Shown here in pieces: positions 53,074 to 56,547 of a stretch of DNA of 64,000 bases (position 1 is its first letter; every line of letters begins with the position of its first letter). The position numbers and the translations under genes are program-made. The notes beneath the pieces were generated by a model. It was given only the letters and a program-made list of their open reading frames with translations, was not told the origin of the DNA and searched no databases. Origin of the DNA: Arthrobacter sp. StoSoilB5 (GTDB taxonomy: Bacteria > Actinomycetota > Actinomycetes > Actinomycetales > Micrococcaceae); contig NZ_AP024646.1 in the NCBI RefSeq assembly GCF_019977235.1, forward strand, positions 1,612,001-1,676,000, in the 5' to 3' direction.

Positions 53074-53949
53074 ATGCCTTCTCCCGACTCGCCCCTCCAC
53101 GGAGCGGTTGCGCCGTTCACTATGGGGCCGGCACTCCTGTTTTGCCCAGCTGACCGGCCGGAACGTTTCGGCAAGGCAGCGGAGCGCTCGGACGCCGTGA
53201 TCCTTGACCTCGAGGATGCCGTTGCTCCGGGGGACAAACAGCGTGCCCGGGGCGCGATCCTCGGGCAGCTCGGATCCGATGGGGACGCCGCTGAGCTTGA
53301 CCCCAGCCGGACGATTATCCGCGTTAATCCTGTGGGCTCGGCCGAATTCGAGAAGGATCTCCACAGCCTGGCGCACTCTCCCTACCGCACTGTCATGCTC
53401 GCCAAAGCGGAGAGTGCCGAGCAGCTCAGGGCGCTTGAGGGCTACCGCGTGATTGCGCTCTGCGAAACAGCCGCCGGCGTCGTCAATGCTTCAGCCATCG
53501 CAGCCGAACCCAACGTCGTTGCCTTGATGTGGGGCGCGGAGGACCTGTTGGCCTCCTTGGGCGGTCTCTCCAGCAGGAACGACGACGGCGGCTACCGCGC
53601 TGTGGCCCTGCACTCACGGTCCGCTGTGCTGCTTGCCGCCAAGGCCGCGGGCAAGGAAGCCATCGACTCCGTCTATGTGAACATCCCCGATCTCCAGGGC
53701 CTGGCGGCGGAGTCCTTGGACGCCGTGGCCAGCGGTTTCGGTGCCAAGGCCTGCATCCACCCGAGCCAGGTGGCAACAGTACGCGAGGCCTACGCGCCAT
53801 CGCCTGAAGCCGTGACTGAGGCCGCGGAGCTTCTCGACGCAGCGTCTGCAGCCGGGACAGGTGTCTTCCAGTTCAAGGGCAAGATGATCGACGGCCCCAT
53901 CCTCAAGCATGCCGAGGCAACTCTGCGCCGGGCCCGGCACGCGAGATGA
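53074..53949 (+). CDS. CitE-like beta-hydroxyacyl-CoA lyase (HpcH/HpaI fold)
   Basis: Start at ATG 53074 after AAGGAA. The 291-residue TIM-barrel enzyme has ALLFCPADRPERFGKAAERSDAVILDLEDAV, the phosphate/CoA-binding RVNPVGSAEFEKDL, catalytic Glu in ALCETAAGVVN and GFGAKACIHPSQVATV. It lacks partner citrate-lyase genes. The M. tuberculosis counterpart Rv2498c was reported to cleave (R)-HMG-CoA and (S)-citramalyl-CoA. It would give acetyl-CoA and acetoacetate here. Last gene of the operon. Confidence 0.88.
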   Translation: MPSPDSPLHGAVAPFTMGPALLFCPADRPERFGKAAERSDAVILDLEDAVAPGDKQRARGAILGQLGSDGDAAELDPSRTIIRVNPVGSAEFEKDLHSLAHSPYRTVMLAKAESAEQLRALEGYRVIALCETAAGVVNASAIAAEPNVVALMWGAEDLLASLGGLSSRNDDGGYRAVALHSRSAVLLAAKAAGKEAIDSVYVNIPDLQGLAAESLDAVASGFGAKACIHPSQVATVREAYAPSPEAVTEAAELLDAASAAGTGVFQFKGKMIDGPILKHAEATLRRARHAR

Positions 53950-53972
53950 CAGTTAATACCAATGTTTTTCGG
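53950..53972 (+). terminator. Left half of an IS-split terminator, including target duplication
   Basis: The arm CAGTTAATACCAATGTT (53950-53966) is perfectly complementary to AACATTGGTATTAACTG at 55372-55388. The two are now separated by the IS481 element. Without the insertion they form a 17-bp stem with a short TTTCGGG loop directly after the lyase stop. ACCAATGTTTTTCGG (53958-53972) is the left copy of the target-site duplication. Confidence 0.85.
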
Positions 53973-55355
53973 TGTCATGTCTCAGGACATTGAGGACACT
54001 TCGAGTCTCAGGACTTCGTGGACACTGTATGTCTCATGACGTCGTGGACACTTGGTTCGCCATGAAGCCGCGGGGTTTGTTGTTGCCTATGTATTTGGTT
54101 CCTCTTGGCGGGCGCGGATGGGAAATGATTTCGGTTCCGTGCCCGTCGAAGAACATGATGCGTTGTGCGTCGTAGAGGATGTGGATTGTTTCTCCGGCGC
54201 GGTCTCTGCCTACTTGGAAGTGCGTGCCCACGACCGTGACGACGCCCAGGCGGCTGACGGTTCTTCGTACGGTTCGCCGGATCTGGGTTTTGATCTCAGA
54301 GATCACGGGGACCGAGGGGGCGGGCACTTTCTCGGTGGCTTCCCAAGCCTGTTGGGGAGTCATTCGGGCCGGCAGTGCCTGATGTTCACGCTCGGTGTTG
54401 TAGTAGTGGTCGAAGGTGTCGACCTGGGCTTGAAGATCCTTGATCGTTGAAGCCGGTTTTTGCTTGTGCAGAAACCGGTGCAGTGTGCGGTGGAATCGTT
54501 CGTTCTTGCCCTGGGTGGTGGGCTTGTAGGGCTTGCCCGTGATCGGTTCGACTCCGAGAGATCTCAGGTAGTCCACCAATGCCCCGCTTCGTCCCCTGCG
54601 TGTGGGGTTCAGGGCCATGCCGTTGTCGGAGAGAAACTTCCGGGGAACCCCGTGTTTACTGATGGCATGTTTGACCACCCGCAGGGCCGCTTCGCTCGTT
54701 TCTCCGGCCGCAACCAGTGACGCCAAGGCCAAGCGTGAATGATCATCAATGAGCTGGAAAATCACAACCTTCCGCCCCGTTTTCCAGCTGCCATTCCGTG
54801 GCGTCGATCTGCCAGCAACAGTTCGGTGCGGGATATACGAACCGGCGGTAAGCGTTTCGAGGCTTCTTCCGCGGCTCCGGAACCACCATGCCGGCCTTGG
54901 TAAAGAGCCGGGCAAGCGTTGCCCGGGACGGCGGTTCCACACCGTCCCGGCGCATCCTTGCCTGAACGCTCAAAGGCCCATGGTCATGGCCTTGGGCCTC
55001 CAACGCTTCCCTCACATGCAAAGCCAACGCGGTGACCCCTGCGGGAGTAGCGTTAGGGCTGGTACGTGGCTTGGTCGAACGCATAGCCATCGCTTGTGCC
55101 GGCCCACCCGACACCGCAGCGGCCCTGACCTTATAGAACCAAGACCGTGAGACGTTGTGCTCGCGGCAGAAGGCTGCCACGGCACCTCGAGGACTCTCCT
55201 CAGGCCACGAGGCGACAAGATACCGGACCTTCATATCGGGTTTGAGTTCGCTCATGGAACGAGCAAAACCCGCACAAGTGCCCACGATGTCCCGAGACAC
55301 ACTGTCCACGATGTCCTGAGACAGAAGTGTCCATTAAGTCATGAGACTCCACAAC
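53973..55355 (-). mobile_element. IS481-family insertion sequence, 1383 bp, with 15-bp target duplication
   Basis: The ends are TGT...ACA with an imperfect inverted repeat (21 of the outer 29 positions match). ACCAATGTTTTTCGG flanks both sides exactly (53958-53972 and 55356-55370). Each end carries three spaced copies of a GTCTCA-x-GAC-x-TCGTGGACA-like motif: at 53979, 54005 and 54031 on the left, and mirrored with 24-25-bp spacing on the right. The sole gene is a frameshifted transposase. Confidence 0.93.
54034..55255 (-). pseudogene. IS481-family transposase, frameshifted
   Basis: It reads from ATG 55255 (MSELKPDMKVRYLVASW) through a helix-turn-helix (AAFCREHNVSRSWFYKVR) to the first catalytic Asp in CWQIDATEWQLENG, then leaves frame and stops at 54746. 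The second frame continues with RKVVIFQLIDDHSRLALA, the second Asp in FLSDNGMALN and the catalytic Glu in GKNERFHRTLHRF, ending at 54034. The break maps to a run of four C (plus strand 54775-54778); deleting one base restores a single DDE protein of about 406 residues. Either a recent one-base insertion or a +1 programmed frameshift. Confidence 0.88.
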
Positions 55356-55388
55356 CAATGTTTTTCGGGAACATTGGTATTAACTGCC
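55356..55388 (+). terminator. Right half of the IS-split terminator, including target duplication
   Basis: ACCAATGTTTTTCGG (55356-55370) is the right target-duplication copy. It is followed by AACATTGGTATTAACTG (55372-55388). The TSD copy with this arm still forms a shorter perfect hairpin (ACCAATGTT with AACATTGGT), so some terminator function may remain for the convergent minus-strand gene. Confidence 0.8.
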
Positions 55389-55410
55389 AATTCGACGGGC
55401 GGCTGGAGCC

Positions 55411-56547
55411 CTAGGCGCGGACCGGTGCGGCGCGTACCGGCGTCGAGAGTTCCGTTAGCTCCACCATCCCTGGGCGCTTGACGGTGCTCTTGATGACTAC
55501 AGCGCTCCCGTTCTTGGCGGATTCCAGCACAGACTCCATGACCTCAAGGGCGTGGAAAGCCAGTTGGCCTCCCGCGCGGGGCTCTTGTCCGGCCGGAGTG
55601 GCCGACAAGTCAGCGATGCCGAAGCCGCGGCCGGCATCAACGTAACCGGCGGATACAGGCAGCGTTTTCCACTCCTCGGCTCCCAGCTCGAACAACTGCA
55701 CGTCGCCGTCGAAGTGGTTGGGATCCGGAACAACAAGCGACCCCTTCTCCCCATGGACTTCGATGTTGGGGCTCTTGGTCTTGACGGCGTCGAAGCTCAT
55801 GAACAGCGTGGACAAGGCGCCGGATGCGTGCACCAACACACCTGTGACGTGGGAATCGATCTCCACCGTCACTTTTTGCCCCTTGCGGGGACCGGAACCG
55901 ATGGTTCGTTCGCTGCGCGTATGGCTGGCTGCGCCCACCACCGACACTACGGGGCCGAGCAACGTGACCAGAGCGGACACGTAGTAAGGGCCCATGTCCA
56001 GCAGCGGACCCCCGCCGGGCTGGTAGTAGAAGTCGGGGTTCGGATGCCAGCGCTCGTGCCCGGGCGTAGCCATGGTTGCGGTCGCCGAAACAGGAGCGCC
56101 AATCAGGCCGTCGTCGATCGCTTTCCGGGCGGTTTGGATACCGGTGCCGAGGACAGTATCCGGGGCACAGCCGACCATCACTCCGGCCGCGTTGGCTGCC
56201 TCGAGTACTTGCCGGGCCTCGGCCGTGGTTGCCGCCAACGGCTTCTCGCCATAAACGGCCTTGCCCGCCGCGATTGCCTTGAGCGCGATGTCCGCATGCG
56301 CGGCCGGGATGGTCAGGTTGAGAACAAGTTCGACGTCGTCCGCCGCCAGCAACCCATCCACGGACAACGCACGGACGCCGTCGTAGGATTCAGCAACTGC
56401 TTCGGCACGGGCGGGATCAAGGTCCGCGACGGCTACCAGGTTGATGGCGTCCAGTCGGCGGAAGCTCGCAAGGTACTGGGCGATGATGGCGCCGCAGCCA
56501 ATGATTCCTACATTCAGCGGTTTGGCTGGTTCTACCGGGATGCCCAC
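55411..56547 (-). CDS. Gfo/Idh/MocA-family oxidoreductase (last gene of the sugar operon)
   Basis: Start at GTG 56547 behind AAAGGGG; the open frame upstream overlaps the ThuA gene. The 378-residue protein has a Rossmann domain (NVGIIGCGAIIAQYLASFRRL, AVADLDPARAEAVAE) and the signature EKP (VYGEKPLAATTAEAR) before the dimeric alpha/beta domain. Such enzymes oxidise hydroxyls of sugars or inositols, often at C3, with NAD(P). It overlaps the end of the ThuA gene by 16 bases, indicating coupling. Confidence 0.87.
   Translation of the reverse strand: MGIPVEPAKPLNVGIIGCGAIIAQYLASFRRLDAINLVAVADLDPARAEAVAESYDGVRALSVDGLLAADDVELVLNLTIPAAHADIALKAIAAGKAVYGEKPLAATTAEARQVLEAANAAGVMVGCAPDTVLGTGIQTARKAIDDGLIGAPVSATATMATPGHERWHPNPDFYYQPGGGPLLDMGPYYVSALVTLLGPVVSVVGAASHTRSERTIGSGPRKGQKVTVEIDSHVTGVLVHASGALSTLFMSFDAVKTKSPNIEVHGEKGSLVVPDPNHFDGDVQLFELGAEEWKTLPVSAGYVDAGRGFGIADLSATPAGQEPRAGGQLAFHALEVMESVLESAKNGSAVVIKSTVKRPGMVELTELSTPVRAAPVRA

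Follow-up and report, generated by a model that had tools for sequence, protein, structure and literature searches.

The window, a stretch of 64,000 nucleotides from contig NZ_AP024646.1 of Arthrobacter sp. StoSoilB5, contains two convergent genes: one for an HpcH/HpaI aldolase/citrate-lyase-type protein (positions 53122–53949, forward strand) and one for a Gfo/Idh/MocA oxidoreductase (55411–56547, reverse strand). Between them lies an IS481-like insertion sequence (IS) of 1381 bp with TGT...ACA ends (53973–55353, transposase on the reverse strand), flanked on both sides by ACCAATGTTTTTCGG, an exact 15-bp target duplication (forward strand; left copy 53958–53972, right copy 55354–55368). The first-pass annotation of this DNA had resolved the edges of the element and of the duplication to the base, and the positions given here agree with it. 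The IS carries the TGT...ACA ends and inverted repeats that characterize the IS481 family, and duplication lengths fit the 2–15 bp given for that family in the sections consulted of PMC10045372, one copy in the same genome having 16 bp. Three repeats of 26 bp beneath the left end (53979–54056, forward strand), inversely matched by subterminal repeats at the right end (55279–55323, forward strand), are putative transposase-binding sites. The transposase is encoded on the reverse strand in two frames, an N-terminal part (54746–55309) and a C-terminal part with the integrase core (54034–54942), which are out of frame with each other in the window copy; the break is caused by a one-base length difference that is absent from the five other copies of the genome. 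Since copy L003 has an intact single frame of 424 amino acids, the window copy is probably non-autonomous. The best model for the L003 protein was NF033577 (IS481), with an E-value of 2.6e-59 and 201.1 bits vs. a curated cut-off of 224, followed by an IS3 model (E 1.2e-30); it also matched rve and rve_3 (DDE integrase core, single ORF), and D169, D228, and E270, picked by eye from the motifs, are its putative catalytic residues.

Removal of the IS and of one duplication copy rebuilt the perfect 17-bp stem described in the first-pass annotation, CAGTTAATACCAATGTT-TTTCGGG-AACATTGGTATTAACTG. The whole rebuilt palindrome exceeds this stem: it measures 57 bp, with arms that are 88% complementary, the 5' (left) arm at 53942–53966 including the lyase stop codon, so that this gene ends inside the palindrome, and the 3' (right) arm at 55370–55394 (both forward strand). 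The duplicated stretch takes up the inner 9 nt of the left arm and 6 nt of the adjoining loop. Folded as RNA, the rebuilt palindrome reached −27.7 kcal/mol (z = −8.1; none of 200 shuffles equalled it), and as an ungapped inverted repeat it scored 17.5, with none of 960 random stretches from IS loci reaching 13. On the transposase 5' side, a 9-bp hairpin (55354–55378, forward strand) is re-formed by pairing between the right copy of the duplication and the inner part of the 3' arm. As the lyase and Gfo/Idh genes converge, transcripts reading through the junction, a possible consequence of the insertion raised in the first-pass annotation, would run antisense to the operon on the far side; those coming from the Gfo/Idh side would cross the transposase gene in the sense direction. 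A guide-type targeting, RNA or DNA, by a copy of the target carried inside the IS was considered and rejected: the longest words common to the IS and four palindromes of the same family were 7–10 nt, no longer than expected by chance (shuffled IS, mean 8.4, maximum 11).

The split hairpin belongs to a dispersed family of repeats, here called family A. A covariance model of it (R1) was built from 14 sites, five of them occupied by the IS, and detected in the same genome 12 strong unoccupied sites, one more at 4478022, and three weak ones; the R1 match at 1356804 is a site of a second family (family B, see below), and the weak match at 3438654 is better explained by the family-B model. The arms of family A covary, with both sides changed in 13 of 25 pairs (0 of 500 shuffles as high) and 90.6% of cells paired vs. 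28–44% in sliding controls; because the sites are paralogous, the pattern could also stem from gene conversion between arms instead of selection for pairing. Across the genus, R1 matches at E ≤ 1e-5 were present in 138 of 150 genomes, with at most 37 candidates scored per genome, so that per-genome counts are lower bounds; matches to the IS DNA, many of them only fragments, were present in 35 of the 150. A search of Rfam at a permissive threshold returned only mir-3479, below the gathering score and at one of six loci, and a known RNA family was therefore rejected, the hit being read as a long-hairpin artefact. An origin of the palindrome as a RAYT-driven REP was likewise rejected for this genome, which contains no match to Y1_Tnp (PF01797), a model that was positive in 5 of 14 control genomes.

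Family A lies at gene 3' ends, as terminators do. The gene context of 45 R1 sites, determined on gene calls from a simple codon-usage script, was convergent in 34, codirectional in nine, and divergent in none, with two overlapping a called gene; of the gaps in the window that span at least 57 bp, five were convergent, 20 codirectional, and seven divergent. These 45 sites comprise 29 genus loci, which are the best-scoring R1 matches and hence a biased sample, and 16 matches from the genome itself, two of which (L082 and L086) fit the family-B model better. No T-tract followed the stems: the next 10 nt contained 1.6 T on average (84 sides of 42 loci), vs. about 1.9 in the background, so family A can at most be called a putative intrinsic terminator. 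The first-pass annotation had read the insertion as a preference for terminator structure; what stood of that reading is the stem-loop target and the location of the motif at gene 3' ends, and a preference for terminator structure in general was not supported, the family-B palindromes of the same genome (see below) being free of the IS.

The orthologous junction was compared in relatives. The lyase gene was present in 205 of the 206 genomes searched, and the lyase/Gfo-Idh junction was kept in 17 of the best 29 relative loci. An uninterrupted family-A palindrome occupied nine of these 17 junctions, one of them weak (E 1.2e-5), which bore out the empty hairpin that had been deduced by excising the IS. 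Seven junctions contained a GC-rich imperfect palindrome instead of family A, and at the remaining one (L269) merely about 15 bp separate the two genes. The GC-rich palindrome reads about ATCCGGCCCTTGTTCG...CGAACAAGGGCCGGAT (L268, L278, L282, L284, L289, L290, and L291); six of the seven folded with −35 to −43 kcal/mol, and the seventh (L289) was recognized by eye. The junction thus tolerates the swap of one palindrome family for another. At junction L270, the family-A palindrome (2312–2382) is extended at its tip by an additional inner stem, itself paired, giving 71 bp.

The genome, a single contig of 5.3 Mb, contains six full-length copies of the IS that differ at two positions in total. All six lie in family-A palindromes, one of them with mismatched halves, which confirmed the expectation that other copies of the element would also sit in hairpins; the consensus of this family is about CGAGRTGRCAGTTAATGCCAATGTT-N7-inverse, and the flanks past the 57 bp look unrelated among copies. 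Five copies have intact duplications, of 15, 15, 15, 15, and 16 bp, from which the palindrome could be rebuilt. In these five sites, the left end of the IS is joined at most one base from the boundary between loop and 3' arm, the duplication comprises the loop and the inner 9–10 bp of the 5' arm, and the gene context is convergent in three and codirectional in two. The sixth copy (545263–546642) has two target halves that do not match, and its right half is identical to that of the neighbouring copy (542829–544208), suggesting that it may have arisen by recombination or conversion between copies. The two copies, within G000:C1:542829-546642, are in inverted orientation about 1 kb apart and have the right target half in common. 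Under a uniform model, the chance of six insertions in about 19 family-A sites is near 1e-22; this evidence for family-A targeting by the window IS comes from one strain and six copies, and three plasmid records, none covering 80%, added no insertion sites. The copies of this genome thus have what defines a REP-targeting IS, namely several copies at a fixed position in a repeated extragenic palindrome. For this genome, a family-specific target, a near-fixed strike geometry, and a target that pre-existed the insertion are observed directly.

Related elements in the genus were examined in the same way. Of 20 sites rebuilt within the Arthrobacter clade, own copies included, 18 were palindromic: 17 scored at least 10, 16 of them at least 13, and the palindrome of the element of G088 was recognized by eye. 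Only 1.25% of 960 random stretches reached a score of 10, the level at which L002 lies (10.0), and none reached 13. L021 and L087 were rebuilt and proved not palindromic. Matching duplications were absent in four of the 20 (L002, L019, L020, and L025), the halves of which may come from different events. In L002, L019, and L141, the best pairing has a long loop and the strike point is ambiguous; the remaining 15 palindromic sites all have the join at most two bases from the boundary between loop and 3' arm, and the intact duplications among them span the loop together with 8–10 bp of the 5' arm. Eighteen stretches were fetched, of which L196, L197, and L198 gave complete sites of the clade and L203 a site joined with L026. 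Several target families are involved besides family A. The elements of G022, G072, G129, G110, and G048 are inserted in family B, whereas G106 and G016 have theirs in family C (CGAGGNGTGAGATCTCGGC...); that of G088 is inserted in family D, in a perfect palindrome with 26-bp arms read across two contig ends with a common 15-bp duplication, and L141 is a weak family-D case. Genus elements with other end sequences were kept out of the clade (L028/L208, L029, L035, L199, and L209); their duplications are 14–15 bp long, and their insertion points lack a long palindrome.

Target class tracks the transposase tree, on which it required 11 changes, the minimum being 10 and the mean of shuffled labels 24.3, with 0 of 200 shuffles as low. 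The family-A transposase is about 63% identical to family-B ones such as those of L022 and L023. The labels were assigned by eye from the flanks and fixed before the tree was built. The tree comprises 38 of 43 extracted frames, 35 of them different and several rows being copies from one genome; L030, L123, L133, L140, and L165 were dropped for having no alignment or a short one.

The target sites of the related elements served to define family B (66 bp, CCCAACTGRGTMGCA...). Its model gave at least 100 matches in the genome of the window (both strands, E ≤ 1e-4, at most 150 candidates); about five of the 100 listed are expected to be family A, and after setting aside the few family-A sites roughly 45–50 family-B sites are found among the matches listed. 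A plain pattern put the number of sites lower, at about 24 (76 matches vs. 28 for the reversed pattern). None of the roughly 45–50 family-B sites holds a copy of the window IS, all six being in family A; by a hypergeometric test with 18–22 family-A and 50 family-B sites, this has a probability of 1.7e-4 to 4.8e-4, and with 24 family-B sites of 3.5e-3 to 8e-3. The absence of copies from family B together with six in family A indicated that hairpin structure by itself probably does not choose the site. Although distinct, the two families are related in sequence: either model also picks up a few sites belonging to the other family, which softens the contrast. The gene context of family B was mixed (eight convergent, seven codirectional, and four divergent among 19 scored of 21 loci, two being too short), so it is not simply a 3'-end element.

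Many elements of a sister IS481-like clade (L125–L165), hosted by Mycobacteriaceae, Kribbella, Nocardioides, Pseudonocardia, and one unclassified actinomycete locus, lie beside a different kind of site, a TCGAACnnnnGTTCGA dyad, which resembles the SOS/LexA box and which occurs on either side of the element. With at most two mismatches, such a dyad was found 27–34 bp from the centre of the duplication in 15 of 38 resolved elements, the centre-to-centre distance being 27–29.5 bp in 14 of the 15; only 1.4% of random stretches hold such a dyad anywhere. The set consisted of 39 of 80 loci (38 resolved), chosen for a repeat of at least 13 bp beside plausible ends, so that its 14–15-bp duplications are preselected and are no test of the duplication range of the family; the remaining loci of the 80 may have shorter ones. 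L096, with weak ends, was omitted, and L101 and L103 have identical flanks. As 14–15-bp duplications occur beside SOS-box-like sites too, the long duplication cannot be kept as a mark of hairpin choice, the role that the first-pass annotation had given it. Tandem TGTGGGCA-like repeats and GTGTGCACnnnGTGCACAC appeared by eye as further target classes, similarly spaced from the duplication, at loci mostly from Microbacteriaceae (L097, L100, L105, L107, L121, L123, and L136) and at two from Arthrobacter (L091 and L162).

Since the IS sits at the tip of one repeated motif and its relatives at the tips of others, insertion is targeted rather than random. We consider it likely (probability about 0.8) that the window IS belongs to an IS481-like group with long duplications (14–16 bp) and dedicated targets, its target in this genome being the apex of family-A palindromes at gene 3' ends. 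From the sequence comparison, we infer that the transposase, possibly aided by a host factor, would read the conserved sequence of the arms and strike at the tip, perhaps during extrusion of the palindrome, and that the target motif may have changed, among families A to D, as the transposase diverged. The geometry of insertion would re-form a short hairpin on the transposase 5' side, which may shield the transposase gene from outside transcription, and the intergenic site would spare the neighbouring genes, making it a safe and repeated landing site. A broader proposal, that target recognition was retuned repeatedly among four Arthrobacter palindrome families and the SOS-box-like dyads of Mycobacteriaceae and relatives, at a fixed distance from the latter and at the tip of the palindromes, with sequence setting the family and a cruciform or hairpin the strike point, is tentative, the odds being rather against it in this full form.

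The closest competitor of targeting by arm sequence and tip is sequence-specific reading of linear double-stranded DNA; the palindrome would then amount to two inverted binding sites, and its hairpin form would be irrelevant. The 15 of 38 sister elements placed 27–34 bp from a TCGAACnnnnGTTCGA dyad, guided by a binding site with no hairpin at the insertion point, speak for it, as do the well conserved outer arm positions of both A and B; apex insertion across distinct families, however, would equally fit a structural cue. It falls only somewhat short of even odds and is compatible with the preferred explanation, from which it differs solely in the need for extrusion. At the other extreme, the idea put forward in the first-pass annotation, that the IS enters any strong stem-loop or terminator, would account for the use of different palindrome families with similar geometry by relatives, and for fixed-position hairpins in the right flank (score of at least 7) at 8 of 26 distinct right ends vs. 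0.3–0.4% at random. It is nevertheless unlikely, given that the target family tracks the transposase tree and that the roughly 45–50 family-B palindromes among the matches listed are free of copies, even though their model has 31 pairs vs. 25 in A and one folded B site reached −61.4 kcal/mol.

Two further explanations dispense with target choice by the transposase. If insertion were wide and only harmless intergenic copies survived, or if a host protein bound at 3'-end palindromes directed it, the location of the sites of this genome at gene ends, where insertion does no harm, would follow; survivorship leaves unexplained the same position within one repeat family, and a single host factor would not direct diverged transposases of one genus to different families, so that we regard this as very improbable. 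That the palindromes belong to the IS, or were copied along with it by segmental duplication, might be supposed from the palindrome half found on both sides of every genome copy. The unrelated-looking flanks past 57 bp and the existence of free palindromes in genomes with and without the IS argue against it, the uninterrupted orthologous sites contradict it, and its probability is negligible.

Targeting of REPs by IS elements is already known and includes one IS481 member. REP-targeting elements have been reported in the IS3, IS110, IS4, IS256, and IS5 families (Tobes and Pareja, 2006; PMC1525189), the main text of which does not contain the word IS481; like the window IS, they are inserted at one set position within a repeated extragenic palindrome, ISPsy8 lying at the symmetry axis of the hairpin. 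In Pseudomonas fluorescens SBW25, copies of an IS481-family element lie at the same REP position, and a new copy was seen to insert into a REP (PMC11708052; mBio, 2024). According to the sections consulted, that element shares with the window IS its IS481 type and its fixed position in a repeated palindrome, and differs in its 4-bp duplications (15–16 bp in the copies of this genome), in its host, a gammaproteobacterium, and in REPs present in hundreds of copies, the palindrome here being 57 bp long, present about 20 times, and hosted by a genome in which Y1_Tnp had no match. The "stem-loop replacing" transposition of IS1272 also targets inverted repeats able to form stem-loops, but these are described as having no common sequence, and the stem-loop is deleted and no duplication made (PMC5678879), whereas the window IS targets one sequence family and duplicates the inner arm and loop. 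Duplications of about 15 bp are found, with an IS481-type transposase as here, in the archaeal ISMac4 and ISA0963-1 and in the eukaryotic IS481EU, for which TGT...ACA ends are stated in Histomonas; the portions consulted mention no palindrome or SOS-box target for them (PMC10045372). An IS481 transposon of Rhodococcus uses a CTAG target, another type (PMC6794481). In the literature consulted on IS elements targeting terminators, Arthrobacter palindromes, and IS481 with LexA, no report of such a target was found. As far as searched, then, what is new is an IS481-like Arthrobacter clade with long duplications that targets palindrome tips of several families, with target class tracking the transposase tree.

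Several target classes defined to the base and tracking the tree mean that pairs of close transposases could be compared, or chimaeras made, to locate the part of the protein that reads the target. To our knowledge, target choice by DDE transposases, and how it changes, is understood in detail for few elements; if the retuning proposal is true, these elements would form a natural series of retargeted DDE transposases. The finding also points to covarying gene-end palindrome families in Arthrobacter, of which no description was found in the literature consulted. In the genome of the window, all 12 strong unoccupied family-A palindromes, and likewise four of the six occupied ones, lie within 0.9 Mb of dnaA, the match to which begins at base 52 of the 5.3-Mb contig (G000).
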